Shown here in pieces: positions 7,073 to 38,789 of a DNA stretch of 60,839 nt. Position 1 is the first letter of the stretch. Each line of letters opens with the position of its first letter. Made by a program: the position numbers and the translations under genes. Below the pieces are notes generated by a model. That model ran no database searches. It had not been told where the DNA came from and worked only from the letters and a program-made list of their open reading frames with translations. This DNA comes from Streptomyces sp. NP160. GTDB lineage: Bacteria; Actinomycetota; Actinomycetes; Actinomycetales; Quadrisphaeraceae. The stretch covers positions 1 through 60,839 of the forward strand of contig NZ_VDMJ01000024.1 in NCBI RefSeq assembly GCF_006335115.1. The letters run 5' to 3'.

Positions 7073-7999
7073 TTGAGCACCACCCCCTCCGACCAGGCCA
7101 CCGCCTGCGCGTCGAGCGACCTCGCCCTGATGGCGGCGGCCTTCACCGGGAGCCGGGCGCTGCTGATGGTCATCGGCCGTGACGCCCGCGTGCTGGTGGC
7201 CAACCCGGCGGTGACCCGCACCACCGGCTGGACCTCGGACGAGCTGGCCGCCCGCCCCTTCTGGGAGACCTTCGTGGCTCCTGAGGACCGCGCGCGAGCG
7301 CGCGCCGACTTCTCCCGCGCGATGGCCACCGGCCTGCACTTCACGGTCGAGGGCGACTGGGTGGACCGCTGCGGAGGCCGGCGGCGGGTCTCGATGCAGG
7401 TCGACGTCCTGCTCGACGCGGACGGGCGGCCCTGTGCGGAGTCGCTGGTGGGGGTGGACGTCACCGACCAGCGCCACGAGCAGGCCGCGCTGCGGCGCCG
7501 CGCCGAGACCGACGCCCTGACCGGGCTGGCCAACCGCACGAGCGCCCTGGCCCGTCTGCAGGAGGCCCTCTCCGAGGGCGGACCAGGAGCGGGCGTGCTG
7601 TTCTGCGACCTGGACGGGTTCAAGGCCGTCAACGACCGGGACGGCCACCACGCCGGTGACCTGCTCCTGGTCGAGGTGGCCCGGCGCCTCTCAGCGGTGG
7701 TCGCGCCCGGGGAGCTGGCGGGCCGCTACGGCGGCGACGAGTTCATCGTCATCAGCCCCGGCGCCGACCACCGCCGCCTGGACGCCCTGGCCGCCGCGGT
7801 GCGGTCCGCGGTGGAGCGGCCGGTGGCGCTGCTCGACCCCTCGGCACCCGCCGGTCCGGGGGACCCGAGGGCGGTGCGGGTCGGGGTCAGCACCGGGACC
7901 GCGACGGGCCACCCGGGCGACGCCCCCGACGAGGTCGTGCGCAGCGCGGACCGGCGCATGTACCAGGCCAAGACCGCGCGACGCAGCTGTCGCGGCTGA
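7073..7999 (+). CDS. PAS-GGDEF diguanylate cyclase
   Basis: Makes the second messenger cyclic di-GMP from two GTP. About 308 aa: a PAS sensor domain at residues ~20-135 and a GGDEF domain at ~145-300 with an intact RYGGDEF active site near residue 220, so it is probably active. The position of the inhibitory RxxD site reads APGE, so product feedback through that site is probably lost. The TTG at 7073 is preceded by GGGAGG at good spacing; an ATG at 7130 is the alternative. No membrane segment, so a cytoplasmic sensor. It stands alone. Confidence 0.85.
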   Translation: MSTTPSDQATACASSDLALMAAAFTGSRALLMVIGRDARVLVANPAVTRTTGWTSDELAARPFWETFVAPEDRARARADFSRAMATGLHFTVEGDWVDRCGGRRRVSMQVDVLLDADGRPCAESLVGVDVTDQRHEQAALRRRAETDALTGLANRTSALARLQEALSEGGPGAGVLFCDLDGFKAVNDRDGHHAGDLLLVEVARRLSAVVAPGELAGRYGGDEFIVISPGADHRRLDALAAAVRSAVERPVALLDPSAPAGPGDPRAVRVGVSTGTATGHPGDAPDEVVRSADRRMYQAKTARRSCRG

Positions 8000-29956: not shown

Positions 29957-29972
29957 GTGACCAACCGGAAAC
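29957..29972 (+). promoter_or_regulatory. GlnR-like binding site
   Basis: GTGAC-CAACCG-GAAAC fits the actinobacterial GlnR consensus gTnAc-N6-GaAAc and also the AC-N9-AC spacing reported for mycobacteria. It ends 23 bases before the amidohydrolase start and 10 bases before a TTGACT hexamer at leaderless spacing, close to where an activator would contact the promoter. Related clusters are called nitrogen-starvation genes, so GlnR control is biologically sensible. Confidence 0.6.
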
Positions 29973-29995: not shown

Positions 29996-30853
29996 ATGGG
30001 CAGCGGGGGAGCCGGCACCGGCCGGGGGGTGGGGAGCGGCGTCCACGACGCCCACCGCCACCTCGGCGCGCTGCCCGCCCACCCCTTCTACGGCGGCCCG
30101 CCGGTCAACCCCGACACCGCCGCCGTCGCCGACGTCGACGCGCTGCTGCGCTCCCTCGACGAGGAAGGCGTCGAGCGGGCCCTCGTCATCCCCAACTACG
30201 GCGTCCCGGACGTCACCGCGTCGTTCGCGCTCAACGAGCTGGTGCTCGAGGCCGCCGCCCGCGACGACCGGGTCCGCGCCGGCCTGTGGGTCTCACCGCG
30301 CCCCCAGGACGCCGAGCTCACGGCGCAGGCGCTCCAGCTCGCGGGAGAGAGCGGCGTCGTCGCGCTGAAGACGTCGTTCCTGCTCGGCGGGCGTGCCACC
30401 GACGACGCCTGCCGCCCCCAGCTCGACGCCGTCTTCGACGCGGCCCGCGAGCACGGGCTGGTCGTCCACGTGCACACCAGCCCCGGCGCCGCCTCCGACG
30501 TCGACGAGGTGGGTGAGCTGGTGGAGCGCTACGGCGACCACGTCGCCATCCACCTCGTCCACCTCGGCGGCGGCATGAGCGGCCACATCAAGCTCATCGG
30601 CTCCCGCTTCTTCGACTGGATCGAGGCCGGCAAGCGCGTCTACACCGACACGTCCTGGGCCATCGGCTTCGCGCCGCGCTGGCTGGCCGCCGAGGTGCAG
30701 CGCCGCGGCACCGGACACGACCGCGTGCTCTACGCCTCCGACGAGCCCTGGGGCGACGCCGTCGGCGAGCTGGCGCGACTGCGCGCCGCCGCCGGGGACG
30801 GCGAGCTGGCCCGCCTGTGGCTCACCGAGAACGCCGCAGCCCTCTACGGCTGA
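29996..30853 (+). CDS. amidohydrolase-family (TIM-barrel) protein
   Basis: 285 aa metal-dependent hydrolase or decarboxylase-like enzyme of the amidohydrolase-2/ACMSD type. Metal-ligand candidates are the HRH of DAHRHLG near residue 19, His in VVHVHTSPG, His in HLVHLGGG, and Asp in YASDEPWGD. First gene of the nitrilase-type operon, 56 bases before the MSMEG_0572-like gene, and directly behind the GlnR-like site. It is not one of the core cluster genes I know, so it may add a step specific to this lineage. Confidence 0.8.
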   Translation: MGSGGAGTGRGVGSGVHDAHRHLGALPAHPFYGGPPVNPDTAAVADVDALLRSLDEEGVERALVIPNYGVPDVTASFALNELVLEAAARDDRVRAGLWVSPRPQDAELTAQALQLAGESGVVALKTSFLLGGRATDDACRPQLDAVFDAAREHGLVVHVHTSPGAASDVDEVGELVERYGDHVAIHLVHLGGGMSGHIKLIGSRFFDWIEAGKRVYTDTSWAIGFAPRWLAAEVQRRGTGHDRVLYASDEPWGDAVGELARLRAAAGDGELARLWLTENAAALYG

Positions 30854-30909
30854 GCGACCACCAGCCCACCCGCCCGACACCCACCCGTCACCCACCGGAG
30901 GAGCCCGAG

Positions 30910-31458
30910 ATGACCACCACCGCCGCCGCCACGTCCGACGAGACCGCCGCCGCCATCAAGGAGGCCGCCGAGAAGTCGAAGGCCGAGATCCAGCACCCCT
31001 CGCTGGAGAAGGGCAGCAACCTCTACGGCTCCACCAAGATCTTCCCGGACTACCAGGCCGAGCCCGGGCAGAGCTACCTCACGCTGGTGCACGGCATCGC
31101 GCACGAGTCCTCGGTGAGCTTCGTGGCGATCCTCCAGGCCACCCGCGCGCTGCGGAAGGGCTTCGACTCCGTCCTGTACTTCTACGGCCCCGGCTCGATG
31201 AACTGCATGGCCACCCGCGGTTTCCCGACCACCGGCGACTCCGCCTTCCCGGGCGAGCACAACATCAACAACAGCCTCGAGACCTTCATCGCCGAGGGCG
31301 GCACCGTCTACTGCTGCCGCTTCGGGCTGTCGCTGCACGGCCTGCGCGAGGAGGACCTCATCGCCGGCGTCATCCCCTGCCACCCGCTGGACGTGCAGGA
31401 CGCGCTCATCCACTACGCCAGCAAGGGCGCCATCATCAACAGCACCTACATGGTCTGA
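30910..31458 (+). CDS. MSMEG_0572/Sll0783-family nitrogen starvation response protein
   Basis: 182 aa, recognised by segments such as HPSLEKGSNLYGSTKIFPDY, FYGPGSMNCMATRGFP and PGEHNINNSLETFI. Core member of the conserved nitrilase cluster (Nit1C; MSMEG_0565-0572 in M. smegmatis, sll0783-0788 region in Synechocystis). Biochemical role unknown. A conserved Cys pair (VYCCRFG) and GVIPCHPLDVQ may matter. ATG at 30910 follows a GGAGGAG ribosome site. Confidence 0.92.
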   Translation: MTTTAAATSDETAAAIKEAAEKSKAEIQHPSLEKGSNLYGSTKIFPDYQAEPGQSYLTLVHGIAHESSVSFVAILQATRALRKGFDSVLYFYGPGSMNCMATRGFPTTGDSAFPGEHNINNSLETFIAEGGTVYCCRFGLSLHGLREEDLIAGVIPCHPLDVQDALIHYASKGAIINSTYMV

Positions 31459-31493: not shown

Positions 31494-32606
31494 ATGAGCC
31501 TGGACACCAGGGTCGCCGTCGCCATCCGCGGCGTGCGGACCGCCACCGGCGTGCCGGTGAACCGCCGCGGTGGCGCGGGCCCGAGCGACGACGGCCACCT
31601 CCGCCTCGGCGGGCGGGGCGCTGCCCTGCCGATCGACCCGACCAGCCCGTACCTCGTCCGCGACGGCCGGCTGCTGCGGTCCGCCGGCTGCGGTGACGGC
31701 GCCGGCAGCGCCGGTGGCCTCGCCGAGGAGCTGTGGGTCGACACCGGCCTGGAGGCCGAGGCCGTCGCCAGGCCGCGCTTCTACGACCTGACCACGGCGG
31801 ACGGCGTCCGGTACGACCAGCTCGCCCGCCTCCACGGCGCCGACGTGCTGGCCACCACGGTGGTGCAGACGTGCATCCGGTACGCCGAGGACCAGCGCTG
31901 CCGGTTCTGCTCCATCGAGGAGTCGCTGCGCGCCGGGGCCACGACCGCCGTCAAGCGCCCCGAGCAGCTGGCGGAGGTGGCCGAGGCCGCCGTCCGGCTC
32001 GACGGCGTGCGCCAGGTGGTCATGACGACCGGCACCTCCAACGGGCGCGACCGCGGCGCCCGCCACGTCGCTCGCTGCGTGCGCGCGGTCAAGGAGGCCG
32101 TGCCGGGTCTGCCGGTCCAGGTGCAGGTCGAGCCTCCGGAGGACCTGGGCGCGCTCGCCGAGCTGCGGGACGCCGGGGCCGACTCCCTCGGCATCCACGT
32201 GGAGTCCCTCGACGACGACGTCCGCCGGCGCTGGATGCCGGGCAAGGCCACGGTCTCCCTGGAGCGCTACCGCGAGGCGTGGGCCGAGGGCGTCCGCCTC
32301 TTCGGCCGCAACCAGGTCTCCACGTACCTGATCCTCGGGCTGGGGGAGGACCCCGACGAGCTCGTCGCGGGCGCCGCGGAGCTGGCGGCGATGGGCGTCT
32401 ACCCGTTCGTCGTCCCGTTCCGGCCGATCGCCGGGACGCTCGCCGTGGACGTCGACGGCGCCCGTCCACCGGCGCCCGAGGTGCTGGCGGACGTCACGGC
32501 TCGCGTGGCCGCTGACCTGCGCTCCCGCGGGCTGCTCAGCAGCGGCCAGAAGGCCGGCTGCGCGGCGTGCGGGGCGTGCAGCGCGCTCCAGGCGGCCGGG
32601 GCATGA
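31494..32606 (+). CDS. MSMEG_0568-family radical SAM protein
   Basis: 370 aa radical SAM enzyme of the nitrilase cluster. The probable cluster-binding cysteines are spaced C-x8-C-x2-C (residues ~127, 136, 139; TCIRYAEDQRCRFC), not the classical C-x3-C-x2-C. A C-terminal GCAACGAC motif (Cys ~356, 359, 362) could hold an auxiliary iron-sulfur cluster. Segments QVQVEPPEDLGAL and LGIHVESLDDDVRRRWMPGK support a TIM barrel. The reaction is unknown. Its stop overlaps the next start by 4 bases (ATGA). Confidence 0.9.
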   Translation: MSLDTRVAVAIRGVRTATGVPVNRRGGAGPSDDGHLRLGGRGAALPIDPTSPYLVRDGRLLRSAGCGDGAGSAGGLAEELWVDTGLEAEAVARPRFYDLTTADGVRYDQLARLHGADVLATTVVQTCIRYAEDQRCRFCSIEESLRAGATTAVKRPEQLAEVAEAAVRLDGVRQVVMTTGTSNGRDRGARHVARCVRAVKEAVPGLPVQVQVEPPEDLGALAELRDAGADSLGIHVESLDDDVRRRWMPGKATVSLERYREAWAEGVRLFGRNQVSTYLILGLGEDPDELVAGAAELAAMGVYPFVVPFRPIAGTLAVDVDGARPPAPEVLADVTARVAADLRSRGLLSSGQKAGCAACGACSALQAAGA

Positions 32607-34174
32607 GCATCGGCGGAGTGCTCCTCGGCGCGGTGCCGGCCCCGGCGCGCGCCGAGGCGCCGTCGTGGTCCGTCGAGGTGGCCGACGCCGCCGGCGTCGC
32701 GGCCCACCGCAGGCTGCGCCGCGAGGTGTTCGTGGACGAGCAGGGCCTCTTCGGCGCCGGTGCGGCGGAGACCGACGACGTCGACGACGACCCGCGCACC
32801 GTCGTCCTCGTGGCCCGCGAGGTGGCGTCCGACGGTGCTCCGGGGCGGGTGCTGGGCGGGGTGCGCCTCGCTCCTGCCGGTCAGCACCTCACCGGTGGGG
32901 TCGACGTCGGCTGGTGGGCCGGGTCGCGCCTGGCGGTGGCGCGCGGCGCGCGGGCCTCGAGGATCGGCCCCGCGCTCGTGCGGGCCGCCTGCGCGCACGC
33001 CGAGGCGGCTGGGGCGCTGCGCTTCGACGCCACGGTCCAGGCCGCCGCCGAGCCGATGTTCCGCCGGCTCGGCTGGGAGCGCGTGCGCGAGGTCGTCGTC
33101 CCCGGGGCCGAGACCGTCCCGCACGTGCTGGTGCGCTGGCCCATCGGCAGGACCGCGGTGCTGCTCGAGGCCACCAAGGCTCCGCTCGGCGGGCTGCTGG
33201 CGGGGCTGCTGACCGGTGGCGCCCACCTCGGCGACGACTCCGCGCCCGTCCCGGGCAGCGACCTCGTCGCTGCGTGCGACGCCGTCGTGCCGTCCATGGT
33301 CGAGCGGGACCCGGAGTGGGCGGGCTGGTGCGCCGCGCTGGTCAACGTCAACGACGTCGCGGCGATGGGCGCAGCACCCGTGGGGCTGCTCGACGCCGTG
33401 GGGGCGCGTGACGCGTCCTTCGCGGCACGGGTGCTCTCGGGCCTGCGCGCCGCGTGCGAGGCCTACGGCGTTCCGCTGCTCGGCGGGCACACGCAGCTCG
33501 GCGTGCCCGCCGCGCTGTCGGCGACGGCGCTCGGCCGGGTGCCGGCCGGGCTCGAGCCCGTGCCGGGTGGCGGGGGCCGGCCCGGCCATGCCGTGTGGCT
33601 GGCCGTCGACACCGGCGGCGGCTGGCGCCGCGGCTACGCCGGGCGCCAGTGGGACTCCACCACCGCGCGCACCCCCGAGGAGCTGCGCGCGCTGACCGGC
33701 GTCGTGGGGCGGGTCCGCCCGGCCGCCGCCAAGGACGTCTCGATGGCCGGGGTGGTCGGCACCCTGGCGATGCTCGCCGAGGCCAGCGGCACCGGCGCGG
33801 TGCTCGACGTGGCGACCGTCCCCAGGCCCGCCGGCGCCGCGGCGGGCGACTGGACGACCTGCTTCCCCGGCACCGGGTTCCTCCTCACCGACGACCCCGC
33901 CCGCGACCTCGCCGCCGCAGCACCCGAGCTGCTGGCCGTGGACGGCTTCCGCCTCGAGCGGTGCGGCGAGCTCACCGGGCGCTCCGCCTCGGCCGACACC
34001 CCTGGCGTGCTCCTGCGCTGGCCCGACGGCGAGACGACGCCCGGCACCGCCCCCGGAGGTCGAGCCACCGGCCTCGGCCCAGCCACCCCTGTTCGGGACG
34101 TCCACGACCACCGACCCGGAACGGACGTGATCATGGACGTCCCGAACACCTCGACCCTGGAGGTGAACCCCTGA
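32603..34174 (+). CDS. GNAT acetyltransferase fused to AIR-synthase-like domain (MSMEG_0567 type)
   Basis: 523 aa, two cluster functions in one chain. The N-terminal ~190 residues are a GNAT-like domain (RLRREVFVDEQGLFG, RFDATVQAAAEPMFRRLGWE), the Sll0786 part. The rest resembles PurM/AIR synthase (LLTGGAHLGDDSAPVPG, ALVNVNDVAAMGAAP, LLGGHTQLGVP), the Sll0787 part; PurM-like folds use ATP. This fusion is, as I recall, the mycobacterial arrangement. The last ~30 codons run through a dispersed inverted repeat and look like an acquired tail. Overlaps both neighbours (ATGA, TGATG). Confidence 0.88.
   Translation: MSIGGVLLGAVPAPARAEAPSWSVEVADAAGVAAHRRLRREVFVDEQGLFGAGAAETDDVDDDPRTVVLVAREVASDGAPGRVLGGVRLAPAGQHLTGGVDVGWWAGSRLAVARGARASRIGPALVRAACAHAEAAGALRFDATVQAAAEPMFRRLGWERVREVVVPGAETVPHVLVRWPIGRTAVLLEATKAPLGGLLAGLLTGGAHLGDDSAPVPGSDLVAACDAVVPSMVERDPEWAGWCAALVNVNDVAAMGAAPVGLLDAVGARDASFAARVLSGLRAACEAYGVPLLGGHTQLGVPAALSATALGRVPAGLEPVPGGGGRPGHAVWLAVDTGGGWRRGYAGRQWDSTTARTPEELRALTGVVGRVRPAAAKDVSMAGVVGTLAMLAEASGTGAVLDVATVPRPAGAAAGDWTTCFPGTGFLLTDDPARDLAAAAPELLAVDGFRLERCGELTGRSASADTPGVLLRWPDGETTPGTAPGGRATGLGPATPVRDVHDHRPGTDVIMDVPNTSTLEVNP
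34090..34148. repeat. dispersed GTGATCATGGAC-type inverted repeat inside the operon
   Basis: TGTTCGGGACGTCCA (34090-34104) and its exact reverse complement (34134-34148) flank 29 bases that include GTGATCATGG (34128-34137). The element sits in the final codons of the GNAT/AIRS fusion, just before the nitrilase start. Related copies occur at 1-10, 14225-14234 and 50232-50281. It may fold in the RNA and affect processing or coupling of the operon message. Confidence 0.6.
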
Positions 34175-35109
34175 TGCTCACCGTCGCGGCGGTCTCCGCC
34201 GGCTTCACCCGAGACCTCGACGCCTGCTTCGCGCAGGTCGAGAGCCTGGTCGCCGAGGCCCGCGAGCGCGGTGCCGGCCTGCTCGCCCTGCCCGAGGCCG
34301 CCATGGGCGGGTACCTGTCGACCCTCGGCTCCCACGGCGACGTCGCCGACCCCACCCGGCCCTCCCGCTCCCAGCCGCCCGCTCTGCGCCTCGACGGCCC
34401 CGAGGTGGCGCGGCTGCGCGCGATCGCCGGCGACCTCGTGCTGTGCGTCGGCCTGTGCGAGCTCGCTCCCGACGAGCCCGGTCCGGGCGGTGAGGGAGCC
34501 CGCTACAACACCGCGGTGTGCCTCACCGGCGACGCCGTGCTCGGCGCCTACCGCAAGGTGCACCAGCCCCTCGGCGAGCACCTCTCCTACGCCGCCGGCA
34601 GCGGCTTCGGCGCCTTCGAGACGCCGGTGGGCCGGATCGGGATGCAGATCTGCTACGACAAGGCCTTCCCCGAGGCGGCCCGCGCGCTGGCGCTGGACGG
34701 CGCCCAGCTGGTGGTGAGCCTGTCGGCGTGGCCGGCCTCGCGCACCGGGGCCGCGCCCGTGCTCGCCGACGACCGCTGGACCCACCGGTTCGACCTGCTG
34801 GACAGGGCCCGGGCCCTCGACAACCAGCTGTTCTGGGTGGCCTCCAACCAGGCCGGCACCTTCGGCTCGCTGCGCTACGTGGGGTCGGCCAAGGTGGTCG
34901 ACCCCGGTGGCGCGGTGCTCGCCCACACCGGCACCGGACCGGGCACGGCGGTGGCCACGATCGACCTCGACGGCGGCCTCGCCGCCGCGCGCGGCGGGAT
35001 GTACCACCTGCGCGACCGGCGCCCCGACGCGTACGGCAGCGCCCTGGCAGCCGTTCCGGGGCCGCTGCCCGAGCCGGTCTGGGAGCGCGCGGGGGCTGGC
35101 CGTGCCTGA
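34174..35109 (+). CDS. Nit1C-type nitrilase (carbon-nitrogen hydrolase)
   Basis: 311 aa. The Glu-Lys-Cys triad is intact: Glu 41 (LPEAAMGGY), Lys 128 (YRKVHQPLGE), Cys 160 (MQICYDKAFPE). Nit1C nitrilases are the namesake of this cluster and have been linked to growth on cyanide in Pseudomonas and to nitrogen starvation. The natural substrate is not settled; a nitrile made or trapped by the radical SAM and AIRS-like proteins is a fair guess. Start overlaps the previous stop by one base; the next gene begins 8 bases before its end. Confidence 0.92.
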   Translation: MLTVAAVSAGFTRDLDACFAQVESLVAEARERGAGLLALPEAAMGGYLSTLGSHGDVADPTRPSRSQPPALRLDGPEVARLRAIAGDLVLCVGLCELAPDEPGPGGEGARYNTAVCLTGDAVLGAYRKVHQPLGEHLSYAAGSGFGAFETPVGRIGMQICYDKAFPEAARALALDGAQLVVSLSAWPASRTGAAPVLADDRWTHRFDLLDRARALDNQLFWVASNQAGTFGSLRYVGSAKVVDPGGAVLAHTGTGPGTAVATIDLDGGLAAARGGMYHLRDRRPDAYGSALAAVPGPLPEPVWERAGAGRA

Positions 35110-35404
35110 GGCCACCTTCCGCGTGCGCTGGCCGGACGGCAGCACCGACGCCTGCTACTCGCCCAGCCTCGTCGTCCACGACCACCTCGCGCCGGGCGCC
35201 GAGTACCCGGTGGCCGACTTCACCGCCCGTGTGGGCGCGGCCATGGACGAGGCGTCTGACCGCGTGCGGGCGAAGTACGGCACGGCCTGCACCTCCGCGC
35301 ATGCCACGGCTGCCGGGGTGCGCTCCCGCGCCGCGCGCTTCTCCGCCGACGGCGTCGTGCGGGTGCTGTCGATCGAGCCGCCGCTGCCGGGGAGCACTCG
35401 ATGA
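35102..35404 (+). CDS. MSMEG_0570-family nitrogen starvation response protein
   Basis: 100 aa, a small soluble core member of the nitrilase cluster (FRVRWPDGSTDACYSPSLVV, then HLAPGAEYPVADFTARVGAA). No known catalytic motif; it may be a partner of the nitrilase or the flavoprotein. GTG start overlaps the nitrilase gene by 8 bases, and the stop overlaps the flavoprotein start by 4 (ATGA). Confidence 0.9.
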   Translation: MPEATFRVRWPDGSTDACYSPSLVVHDHLAPGAEYPVADFTARVGAAMDEASDRVRAKYGTACTSAHATAAGVRSRAARFSADGVVRVLSIEPPLPGSTR

Positions 35405-36702
35405 CCGCCCAGGTGAGCGGGCAGCTGGACGGGCTGGACGGGCGGCACGTGCCCGTCGTCGTCGTCGGTGGCGGCCAGGCGGGCCTGTCCATGAGCTGGC
35501 ACCTGGTGCGGGCGGGCGTCGAGCACGTCGTCCTGGAGCGGGGCACCGCCTGCCACGACTGGGCCGACCGCCGCTGGGACGCGTTCACGCTGGTCACGCC
35601 CAACTGGCAGTGCCAGCTGCCGGGGTACGCCTACGACGGCGGCGACCCCGACGGCTTCATGACGCGCGACCAGGTGGTGGCGTGGCTGAGCCGCTACCCC
35701 GCGACCTTCGGGGCGCCGCTGCACGAGGGCGTCGCGGTGACGGCGCTGCGCGAGGCGCCCGGCGGCGGCTTCGCGCTGACGACGACGGCGGGCGCGCTCA
35801 CCGCCGACCAGGTGGTCGTCGCGACCGGCGGGTACCACCAGCCGGTGCTGCCGGCGGTCTCCCAGCGGCTGCCCGACGACGTCGTGCAGCTCCACTCGGC
35901 GGCCTACCGGTCGCCGGAGGCGCTGCCGCCGGGGGCGGTGCTCGTGGTCGGCTCGGGGCAGTCCGGCGCGCAGATCGCCGAGGACCTCCACCTGGCCGGC
36001 CGCGAGGTGCACCTCGCGCTCGGCAGCGCGCCGCGCGTGGCCCGGCGCTACCGGGGGCGCGACTGCGTGGCGTGGCTGCACGACATGGGCGTCTACGACG
36101 TCGGCATCGAGGCGCACGCGGGCGGGCTGTCCAAGCGCGAGTCCACCAACCACTACGTGACCGGCCGTGGTGGCGGGCGCGACATCGACCTGCGGGCCTT
36201 CGCGCGCGACGGCCTGCACCTGCACGGGCGTCTGGAGCGCGTGTCCCCGGCCCACGGGTCGGCGGTGCTGCGCTTCGCCCGCACCACGGCCGCCTCGCTG
36301 GACGCCGCCGACGCCGTCGCCGAGTCCATCAAGGACGACATCGACCGGTGGATCGCCCGGCAGGGGATCGACGCTCCGCTGGAGGCCCGGTACGCGCCGG
36401 TCTGGCGGCCTCCCGCGCCGGAGGACGAGGACGTCGACCTCGACCTGCACGCGGCGGGCGTGGCGTCGGTGGTGTGGGCCGTCGGGTTCCGCGCGGACTT
36501 CCGGTGGGTGCAGGTCGGCGTCTTCGACGGCACCGGGGCGCCCACCCACCGCCGCGGCGTCACGGCCGTGCCGGGACTCCACTTCCTGGGCCTGCCGTGG
36601 CTGCACACGTGGGGCTCGGGGCGCTTCGCCGGTGTCGCGCGCGACGCCGAGCACCTCGCCGAGCACGTGGTGCGCAGGGCAGCGCCCAGCCGGGCTGCCT
36701 GA
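35401..36702 (+). CDS. MSMEG_0569-family flavin-dependent oxidoreductase
   Basis: 433 aa flavoprotein with an N-terminal FAD loop (VVVVGGGQAGLSMSW, ~20-33), a second Rossmann loop for NAD(P)H (VVGSGQSGAQIAEDL, near 185) and the late WAVGFRADFRWVQVGVFD segment. The layout matches group-B flavin monooxygenases and related oxidoreductases. It is the cluster's redox enzyme, perhaps oxidising a nitrogen-bearing intermediate. Codon-level overlap with the previous gene ties it to the operon. Confidence 0.92.
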   Translation: MTAQVSGQLDGLDGRHVPVVVVGGGQAGLSMSWHLVRAGVEHVVLERGTACHDWADRRWDAFTLVTPNWQCQLPGYAYDGGDPDGFMTRDQVVAWLSRYPATFGAPLHEGVAVTALREAPGGGFALTTTAGALTADQVVVATGGYHQPVLPAVSQRLPDDVVQLHSAAYRSPEALPPGAVLVVGSGQSGAQIAEDLHLAGREVHLALGSAPRVARRYRGRDCVAWLHDMGVYDVGIEAHAGGLSKRESTNHYVTGRGGGRDIDLRAFARDGLHLHGRLERVSPAHGSAVLRFARTTAASLDAADAVAESIKDDIDRWIARQGIDAPLEARYAPVWRPPAPEDEDVDLDLHAAGVASVVWAVGFRADFRWVQVGVFDGTGAPTHRRGVTAVPGLHFLGLPWLHTWGSGRFAGVARDAEHLAEHVVRRAAPSRAA

Positions 36703-36714
36703 GGGCGGTCGGGG

Positions 36715-37614
36715 GTGGCTGACGAGGTGGTGCTGGCGGCCGTCGCGGGGCACTTCGGCCGTGACGTCGCCCGCACCCTCGTCAAGCTCGAGGGGGTGGT
36801 CGGTGCTGCCCGCGCCGCGGGGGCGCACCTGCTCGTGCTCCCGGACGCGACGATCGGCGGGTACGTCGACGACCTCGTCGACCCGGCCCCGGCCGGCGAG
36901 GGTGCGCTGCCGCCCGCCGTCGACCTCGACGGTCCGGAGGTGGCGCGGGTCGCCGAGCTCGCCGGTGACGTCGTCGTGTGCTTCGGGATCAGCGAGCGCG
37001 CGGGCATCGATGCGCAGGGGCGGCCGATCCGCTGCAACACCGCGGTGTGCGTGCACCGCGGCGCCGTCCTCGGGGTCCACCGCAAGGTGCACCTGCCGCT
37101 GGGGGAGTCGCGCGCCTACCGCGCGGGTGACCGCTTCTGCGCCTTCGACACCCCCGTCGGCCGGATCGGGATGCTCGTCGACTTCGACAAGACCTTCCCC
37201 GAGAGCGCCCGCACCCTGGCGCTCGACGGGGCGGAGGTGCTGGCGTGCCTGTCGGCCTGGCCCGCCAGCGCCACCGAGCGCGCCGACCGGATCCGCCTCG
37301 ACCGCCAGGCCCGCCTCTTCGACCTGTACGACGCCGCCCGCGCCGCCGAGAACCAGGTCTGGCTGGTCTCCTCCAACCAGACCGGGGTGCAGGGCGGGCT
37401 GCGCTTCCTGGGCCAGGCGAAGGTCGTGGACCCGGCGGGGGAGGTGGTGGCCCGCACCTGGACCCAGGGCGGGATGGCGGTGGCACCGGCCCGCGTGGCC
37501 GAGGGCGTCGCGCGGGCCCGCCGCCGGGTGCACCACCTGCGCGACAGGGTGCTGTCCGCCTACGACTGCGACCGCCCGTTCCCCGACCACGACGACGAGG
37601 GAGCTGTCCCGTGA
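36715..37614 (+). CDS. nitrilase-fold protein with altered catalytic residues
   Basis: 299 aa paralogue of the nitrilase 1.6 kb upstream, similar throughout (NTAVCVHRGAVLGVHRKVHL, TPVGRIGM, SAWPAS). Lys 124 is kept, but the Glu is Asp 44 (LPDATIGGY) and the nucleophilic Cys is Asp 156 (MLVDFDKTFPE versus MQICYDKAFPE). It cannot run the usual thioester chemistry. The good overall conservation argues against a dead gene. It may be a structural partner of the active nitrilase, a binding protein for the product, or an enzyme with new chemistry. GTG start, 12 bases after the flavoprotein stop; overlaps the next gene by 4 bases. Confidence 0.85.
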   Translation: MADEVVLAAVAGHFGRDVARTLVKLEGVVGAARAAGAHLLVLPDATIGGYVDDLVDPAPAGEGALPPAVDLDGPEVARVAELAGDVVVCFGISERAGIDAQGRPIRCNTAVCVHRGAVLGVHRKVHLPLGESRAYRAGDRFCAFDTPVGRIGMLVDFDKTFPESARTLALDGAEVLACLSAWPASATERADRIRLDRQARLFDLYDAARAAENQVWLVSSNQTGVQGGLRFLGQAKVVDPAGEVVARTWTQGGMAVAPARVAEGVARARRRVHHLRDRVLSAYDCDRPFPDHDDEGAVP

Positions 37615-38789
37615 GGGTCGCGCTGGCCACGTACTCCACCAAGCCGCGCGGCGGGGTGGTGCACACGCTGGGGCTGGCCGAGGCGCTGGCCCGGCGCGGT
37701 CACGACGTCACGGTCTGGACCCTCGGGCGCGGCGGCGACACCACCTTCTTCCGCCCCGTCGACCCGGCCGTCCGCGTCGAGGCGGTGCCGTTCGCGCCGG
37801 TGGACGCCGAGGACGTCGGCGCGCGGATCGTGCGGTCGATCGACGTGCTCGGCGGCGCGCTCGCGGAGCACCTGCGGTCGCAGCGCGCTCGGCCCGACGT
37901 CGTCCACGCGCAGGACTGCATCTCCGCCAACGCCGCCCTGGCGCCGGCGCGCACCGCGGGCGTGCCGCTCGTGCGCACCGTCCACCACCTCGACGCGTTC
38001 ACCACCCCCCAGCTCGTGGCCTGCCACGACGCCGCAGTCCGCGAGCCCGACGCCCTGGTGTGCGTCTCCGCGGCGGTCGCCGGCGAGGTGCGCGCCGGGT
38101 ACGGGCTCCAGGCGACGGTCATCCCCGGGGCCGTCGACGCCGCGCGCTTCGCGGCCGCCGCGCGCCCCGCCCCCTCCGCGCGGGCCGCCCGGCGCGCCTG
38201 GCGCTCGCGGCTGGGGCGGTTCGTGCTGGCCGTCGGTGGCGTGGAGCCCCGCAAGGGGTCGCTCGACCTGCTGGAGGCGTGGGCGCTGCTGCGCCGCCAC
38301 CGCCTGGACCTGCGCAACGTGGCGCTCGTGCTGGCGGGCGGGGAGACGCTCTTCGACCACCGCGAGTACCGCGCCGCCTTCGAGGCCCGCGCCGCCGAGC
38401 TCGCGCAGGAGCTCGGCGCCGCGCCGGTGGTCCTGGGACCCGTCGACGACGACGCGCTGCCGTCCCTCGTGGCCGCCGCGGACGCCGTGGCCTTCCCCTC
38501 CACCAAGGAGGGCTTCGGCATGGCACCGCTGGAGGCCCTGGCCGCAGGCGTCCCCGTGGTGGCCCGCGACCTGCCCGTGCTGCGCGAGGTGCTGGGGGAG
38601 GCGGTCCTGTTCGGCGGCGGGGTGCCGGACCTCGCCGACGCCCTGGTCTCCGCACTGGACGGGGGTGCCCCCAGCGCCGCGCACGGACGGGTGGTCGCCG
38701 CCGGGTTCGGCTGGCCGCGCGCCGCCGCCGCTCACGAGGCCTTCTACGAGCGGCTGCCCGGTGACGGGAGGTCCAGGATCGGAGCGTGA
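37611..38789 (+). CDS. MSMEG_0565-family glycosyltransferase (GT4-like)
   Basis: 392 aa, two Rossmann-like halves. Begins with MRVALATYSTKPRGGVVHTL (GGVVHTLGLAEAL being the donor-side loop) and carries the GT4 signature STKEGFGMAPLEALAAGVPV near 299. It should transfer a sugar from a nucleotide donor to an acceptor made in the cluster. GTG start with a 4-base overlap on the nitrilase-fold gene; the stop overlaps the following kinase start by 4. Confidence 0.92.
   Translation: MRVALATYSTKPRGGVVHTLGLAEALARRGHDVTVWTLGRGGDTTFFRPVDPAVRVEAVPFAPVDAEDVGARIVRSIDVLGGALAEHLRSQRARPDVVHAQDCISANAALAPARTAGVPLVRTVHHLDAFTTPQLVACHDAAVREPDALVCVSAAVAGEVRAGYGLQATVIPGAVDAARFAAAARPAPSARAARRAWRSRLGRFVLAVGGVEPRKGSLDLLEAWALLRRHRLDLRNVALVLAGGETLFDHREYRAAFEARAAELAQELGAAPVVLGPVDDDALPSLVAAADAVAFPSTKEGFGMAPLEALAAGVPVVARDLPVLREVLGEAVLFGGGVPDLADALVSALDGGAPSAAHGRVVAAGFGWPRAAAAHEAFYERLPGDGRSRIGA

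Follow-up and report, generated by a model that had tools for sequence, protein, structure and literature searches.

Gene content of the cluster

The window, by which we mean the whole 60,839-nucleotide stretch of DNA that was analyzed, contains one run of genes on the + strand between 29996 and 38789, in which the MSMEG_0572, 0568, 0567, 0570, 0569 and 0565 families each scored above their NCBIfam cut-offs and between which lie two carbon-nitrogen hydrolase paralogues. The paralogue with intact catalytic residues is labeled ACT here, the K-E-D pseudo-hydrolase is labeled PSE and the glycosyltransferase that follows it is labeled GT. The features are as follows, with codon coordinates computed from residue numbers.

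29957..29972 (+): GlnR-box-like sequence GTGACN6GAAAC, the window's sole match, 23 bases upstream of the first gene
29996..30853 (+): amidohydrolase (PF04909) that opens the run and adjoins the cluster in many relatives (Pfam)
30907..31458 (+): MSMEG_0572/Sll0783-family protein (TIGR04044; NCBIfam)
31494..32606 (+): MSMEG_0568-family radical SAM protein (TIGR04043; NCBIfam)
32567..34174 (+): GNAT and AIR-synthase-like protein (TIGR04045/TIGR04050, MSMEG_0567; NCBIfam)
34168..35106 (+): ACT, intact paralogue, Glu-Lys-Glu-Cys (alignment, Pfam)
35102..35404 (+): MSMEG_0570-family protein (TIGR04042; NCBIfam)
35401..36702 (+): MSMEG_0569-family flavin oxidoreductase (TIGR04046; NCBIfam)
36715..37614 (+): PSE, K-E-D pseudo-hydrolase of carbon-nitrogen hydrolase fold, 299 aa (Pfam, alignment, tree, model)
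36844..36846 (+): Asp44 codon, at the place of the general-base Glu of active relatives
37084..37086 (+): codon of Lys124
37105..37107 (+): codon of Glu131 (second Glu)
37180..37182 (+): Asp156 codon, at the place of the nucleophile Cys of active relatives
37611..38789 (+): GT, MSMEG_0565-family glycosyltransferase (TIGR04047; NCBIfam), likely GTG start

The pattern GTGACN6GAAAC, which follows the GlnR-box consensus, would be expected by chance 0.53 times per window.

This is a Nit1C cluster in its actinobacterial form, called gpr in M. smegmatis. Nit1C was described by Podar et al. as a seven-gene cluster of cyanobacteria and proteobacteria with a true nitrilase, a radical SAM protein, a GNAT protein, a flavin oxidoreductase and sometimes a glycosyltransferase, and the terms "actinobacter" and "Mycobacterium" do not occur in the main text of that article (PMC1199592). 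Whereas the Nit1C of cyanobacteria and proteobacteria has one true nitrilase, the actinobacterial cluster has ACT, often together with PSE, instead. The gpr operon of M. smegmatis (MSMEG_0565-0572) is made up of the same gene families as the window cluster; it is described as induced by GlnR, its deletion resulted in peroxide sensitivity in nitrogen starvation and a lower NADPH/NADP ratio, and the authors of the study state that the individual responsible genes could not be identified (PMC6039565). Gene order at three loci (L136, L137, and L139), together with the family names, implies that MSMEG_0566 is PSE and MSMEG_0571 is ACT. The gpr study treated MSMEG_0566 as a putative aliphatic amidase with a possible contribution to nitrogen assimilation (PMC6039565). 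Under nitrogen starvation, the MSMEG_0566 transcript was reported to exceed its level in a glnR deletion strain 8.94-fold in the wild type (PMC4222082), and it is listed at 2.96 among the nitrogen-limitation changes in continuous culture (PMC4617892).

Fold and catalytic positions of PSE

The PSE frame is uninterrupted over its whole length and starts with GTG. Its translation reads LPDATIGGY (Asp44), HRKVHLPLGE (Lys124 and Glu131), and MLVDFDKTFPE (Asp156), in agreement with the Glu-to-Asp and Cys-to-Asp replacements and the retained Lys motif reported in the initial annotation. The corresponding motifs of ACT, which is ~51% identical and separated from PSE by a 1.6 kb gap, are LPEAAMGGY and MQICYDKAFPE. 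Pfam CN_hydrolase (PF00795) matched PSE at 112.9 bits and ACT at 140.9 bits, in both cases above the cut-off of 23.2 that marks membership of the superfamily, and AlphaFold2 with a 64-row alignment as input returned a model of PSE with a pLDDT of 93.7 and a pTM of 0.92. When this predicted structure was submitted to Foldseek, the best match was a D-carbamoylase (E 2.4e-22), and carbamoylases, N-carbamoylputrescine amidase and amidases made up most of the nearest solved folds, which also included 3ivz, an entry whose title names a hyperthermophilic nitrilase; identity to solved structures ranged from 19 to 26% among the 50 structure matches listed. The best structural and sequence matches (N-carbamoylputrescine amidase, D-carbamoylase, and a hyperthermophile amidase and nitrilase; 5h8i, 6lei, 6ypa, and 3ivz) are Glu-Lys-Glu-Cys enzymes in their natural forms, and 3ivz is a dimer and not a spiral. 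By descent and by predicted fold, PSE belongs to the carbon-nitrogen hydrolase (nitrilase) superfamily.

The suggestion that PSE is a subunit of a mixed nitrilase filament found no support, as the Nit6803 nitrilase model (TIGR04048, cut-off 502.6) gave 21.4 bits for ACT and no match to PSE at E 0.001, and the nearest folds are mostly those of carbamoylases and amidases. Among 148 genomes of the class, none contained a Nit6803-type nitrilase above the cut-off, the best score being 484.3 bits against 502.6.

In the superfamily, the buried Lys normally acts together with the Cys and two Glu residues. We read these positions in 90 PSE loci (89 distinct over the core) from Quadrisphaera, Cellulomonas, Microbacterium, Clavibacter, Rathayibacter, Curtobacterium, Frigoribacterium, Janibacter, Promicromonospora, Nocardia, a Rhodococcus plasmid, and further genomes. 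Positions 44, 124, 131, and 156 were occupied by DKED in 81 loci, GKED in 7, QKED in 1, and HKED in 1. Lys124 and the second Glu, Glu131, are therefore kept as in an active hydrolase in 90 of 90 loci, the general-base Glu is gone from position 44 (Asp 81, Gly 7, Gln 1, His 1), and the nucleophile Cys is replaced by Asp156 in 90 of 90, a count to be read with the possible bias that one of the six peptide patterns used to find some of the loci contained Asp156. By comparison, 107 of 110 Cys-type rows carried EKEC, and the three others were incomplete, one being cut by a contig end and two being pieces of a single frameshifted gene. As read from the aligned loci, the conserved signature of PSE is K-E-D: the Asp/Asp pair that the initial annotation proposed to look for in homologues held at position 156 and gave way at position 44, where Gly, Gln, or His also occur, and the Asp that matters, as judged from this pattern, is the one at the place of the nucleophile. 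Because the nucleophile Cys is absent from the sequence, the earlier statement that normal nitrilase chemistry is excluded stands, and it extends to cysteine hydrolase chemistry in general; if MSMEG_0566, which was taken as an amidase, is PSE as gene order implies, its K-E-D center makes cysteine amidase activity impossible.

The codon at position 156 is GAC in 87 and GAT in 2 of the 89 PSE loci other than the window, and TGC in 97 and TGT in 11 of the Cys-type copies, such that the change from TGY to GAY requires two nucleotide steps. A sequencing error was rejected on the basis of this two-nucleotide change and the presence of Asp156 in all of the loci.

PSE and ACT share their operon, predicted fold and Lys124 and Glu131 motifs, and further motif residues that are common to both are invariant in PSE (e.g., Tyr50, Trp182, Asn213, and Asn221). 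ACT differs in keeping both Glu and Cys where PSE has a drifting position 44 and Asp156, and positions 156, 160, 198, 201, 211, and 232 are conserved in both families with a different residue in each. Three of these six positions (198, 201, and 211) fall in the helix 197-213 (P = 0.003 counting 280 columns), which in this fold would belong to the dimer face. Conservation is confined to PSE at ten positions (Gly15, Asp53, Pro57, Cys89, Gly130, Leu179, Arg189, Leu204, Thr223, and Gly233) and to ACT at eight, among them 217 (Trp), 226 (Phe), and, near the C-terminus, 276, 277, and 279.

A separate observation concerns another carbon-nitrogen-hydrolase-like protein of the same genome (L006 1213-2040 (-); contig C118, ~7258-7710), which seems to lack the triad, with Gln for Glu, Cys for Lys, and Asn for Cys.

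Distribution and history

When 394 genomes of the class were surveyed using a profile built from PSE rows alone (E 1e-60), 49 matched, of which 32 held both PSE and ACT, 16 held ACT only, and 1 (G085) held PSE only. All 33 PSE proteins of this survey carry Asp156, and as the profile found the Cys paralogues too, a Cys-bearing PSE would not have been missed. The single orphan (L113 8342-9205) reads D-K-E-D and lies in a genome that lacks ACT (E 1e-40) and the radical SAM gene. In a sample of the phylum, 6 of 296 genomes matched, and the three outside the class carry EKEC copies only; since these copies are partly off-cluster and fall in a clade of their own, they were rejected as candidates for a Cys-bearing PSE outside the class. 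In 398 genomes from the phylum to which an alphaproteobacterial locus belongs, no PSE was found (E 1e-45), a search run with no positive control on a sample that may hold few Nit1C clusters, and three non-actinobacterial genomes gave weak superfamily matches only. A plasmid collection searched at E 1e-30 yielded four matching records, all from Rhodococcus.

A tblastn scan of the ACT-only loci L116-L127, L129, and L186 found no MSMEG_0569-type gene, and in the three such genomes searched whole (G194, G369, and G163) no protein scored above the cut-off of this family; the one gap that was read, in L121, holds a different, longer flavoprotein between ACT and the glycosyltransferase. At L128, L130, and L132, MSMEG_0569 is kept and PSE alone is absent.

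Two further loci are recorded here as observations in their own right. ACT is split over two reading frames (L187 8396-9330) in G003, a genome of the same genus, where the contig stops inside the flavoprotein gene, before the expected position of PSE. On a Rhodococcus qingshengii plasmid, the cluster including PSE (L153 3441-10915) lies between two copies of an IS3-family transposase that share one protein accession, and the presence of the same annotated transposase on both flanks suggests that this cluster can move.

In a 71-row tree, PSE forms one clade (98/89) and ACT another (95/91), while a third clade (100/99) consists of three EKEC copies from other actinobacterial families. These third-clade copies have an intact Glu-Lys-Glu-Cys set (L165 6740-7543, L168 7067-7897, and L169 226-1068); the first two lack cluster genes within the 15 kb around them, and the last is at a contig end. 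On this tree, position 156 changes once, from Cys to Asp at the base of the PSE clade, and never inside that clade, positions 124 and 131 do not change, and position 44 changes at least 4 times inside the PSE clade. Comparison of the window with four relatives (two of which, L021 and L190, are the same sequence) gave dN/dS values of 0.093-0.128 for PSE and 0.081-0.135 for ACT. Since there is a single Cys-to-Asp change with none later and a low dN/dS, the tree indicates that the Cys was lost once, long ago, and that the Asp that replaced it has been guarded since, with the base position released.

PSE thus combines a lost catalytic motif, purifying selection and long conservation, as expected of a pseudoenzyme, and judged by its sequence record it is an ancient, selected pseudo-hydrolase. 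The initial annotation had described the protein as full length, in frame and not decaying, which is borne out by the 299-aa open frame and by dN/dS of 0.09-0.13. It had also treated a local mutation as the case in which relatives would all retain Glu and Cys, and the 90 loci clearly speak against that case. A decaying pseudogene, a local mutation or a sequencing error would account for the loss of two catalytic residues, but the invariance of Asp156, its one origin, its two-nucleotide codon change and a dN/dS of about 0.1 make the probability of any of these negligible; decay and local mutation were rejected on these grounds.

Possible roles of PSE

PSE has probably taken on a new, non-cutting job. 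In the history that we propose, a carbon-nitrogen hydrolase was duplicated in actinobacteria, and one copy lost its nucleophile Cys together with its requirement for the base Glu. Asp156 filled the place of the Cys and became indispensable. It would pair with the buried Lys124 at what used to be the oxyanion site, and the negative charge formerly at Glu44 would have shifted to position 156; both the invariance of Asp156 and the freedom of position 44 could then be explained because the Asp would give Lys124 a fixed counter-ion. The pocket may be locked in an acyl-enzyme-like state with no acyl group, able to bind and unable to hydrolyze. In the least certain step, PSE would be a non-catalytic, ligand-sensing subunit paired with ACT via the usual dimer face and, with equal reserve, would tune ACT within the nitrogen-starvation (gpr/Nit1C) pathway.

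That PSE is a non-catalytic ligand-binding or regulatory partner of ACT is the reading that we tentatively favor. Consistent with it, 32 of the 33 PSE-bearing survey genomes also hold ACT, half of the positions that differ between the families fall in the helix that would lie at the dimer face, and in a partial distance correlation across 41 clusters and 21 gene pairs ACT-PSE was the highest (0.50; top in 220 of 300 bootstraps). The pairing is favored because the dimer face is conserved in the superfamily, where the A-surface joins the subunits of the dimer in crystal structures with a single exception (PMC4700190), and because dead subunits can impose specificity on active ones, as Cys-to-Ala nitrilase subunits did with their active partners (PMC6214922). 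Mixing of NIT4A with NIT4B2 in sorghum, a heteromeric plant nitrilase (PMC5154151), and of NIT1 with NIT2 in Capsella (PMC6214922) offers a precedent in which a second subunit sets the properties of the active one, although these are plant nitrilases, the Capsella ones form helices, and the dead subunits there were engineered (PMC6214922); the available text of this heteromer work contains no natural Cys-to-Asp replacement (PMC5154151, PMC6214922). Against the pairing, the closest gene neighbor of PSE is GT (80 of 87 loci) and not ACT, which it directly follows in only 10 of 85 loci, and once the 16 Quadrisphaera and Micrococcales clusters among the 41 are omitted, the ACT-PSE correlation drops out of the top 5. 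In addition, when the 16 ACT rows from PSE-less genomes were compared with 75 others, a single clade accounted for most of the changes at otherwise conserved positions, and three PSE-less genomes that are placed separately showed almost none, such that, this clade excepted, no clear interface change accompanies the absence of PSE. The occurrence of ACT alone in 16 of 48 ACT-bearing survey genomes shows that ACT does not need PSE, and together with the orphan in G085 it counts against an obligate complex.

The same gene order raises the question of GT. PSE lies directly upstream of GT in those 80 of the 87 other loci holding both, in spite of an otherwise shuffled operon order (the loci behind the neighbor counts were sampled unevenly, with many Microbacteriaceae), its stop overlaps the likely GTG start of GT by 4 bases in the window (GTGA, 37611-37614), and the PSE-GT correlation is the second highest (0.41). 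PSE could accordingly act mainly as a substrate-binding or activating partner of this MSMEG_0565-family glycosyltransferase and not of ACT, but we consider this improbable, as the PSE-GT correlation also leaves the top 5 on omission of the 16 clusters, GT is retained at loci that lack PSE (L116-L130 and L132), the two genes are apart in six Curtobacterium-type loci, no GT adjoins the orphan in G085, and adjacency may mean shared translation only. The existence of PSE without ACT and the radical SAM gene, and the invariance in PSE of the motif residues shared with ACT, would also suit a stand-alone homodimeric ligand-binding protein, a sensor or carrier with no stable protein partner; this is rather unlikely too, given that PSE is almost always encoded with ACT and mostly adjoins GT, and that a carboxylate at the place of the nucleophile would crowd the acyl site. 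A somewhat stronger, still doubtful candidate is an enzyme with a new, non-thiol reaction on the nitrilase fold, in which Lys124, Glu131, and Asp156 would form a catalytic center for a gpr/Nit1C intermediate, with the Asp acting for example as acid/base or nucleophile and the Lys as proton relay or imine former. Three charged residues that are invariant in 90 of 90 loci are unlike a simply decaying active site, some of the ten PSE-only conserved positions are near the active-site motifs in sequence, PSE survives without ACT in G085, and its patchy presence fits an accessory step. However, Gly is tolerated at the base position, a counter-ion may be all that a conserved buried Lys needs, and the open-access literature, as covered by titles, abstract openings and selected passages, yielded neither a description of the Asp protein nor a precedent for a natural Asp at the nucleophile position. 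The narrower version, in which a cysteine-free PSE enzyme carries out an undescribed gpr/Nit1C step and the new Asp makes the general base redundant, is unlikely as well.

PSE represents a clearly delimited subfamily of pseudo-hydrolases within a known superfamily, a K-E-D protein that has been kept since an early duplication. Nit1C/gpr clusters are found in several phyla, and nitrogen-starved M. smegmatis depends on its own for peroxide resistance. The K-E-D protein changes the list of possible reactions for this cluster: the gene that corresponds to it by gene order, an amidase according to published transcriptome tables, would not encode a cysteine amidase. Importantly, Asp156 offers a clean single-residue test between a non-catalytic and a new catalytic role of the fold.
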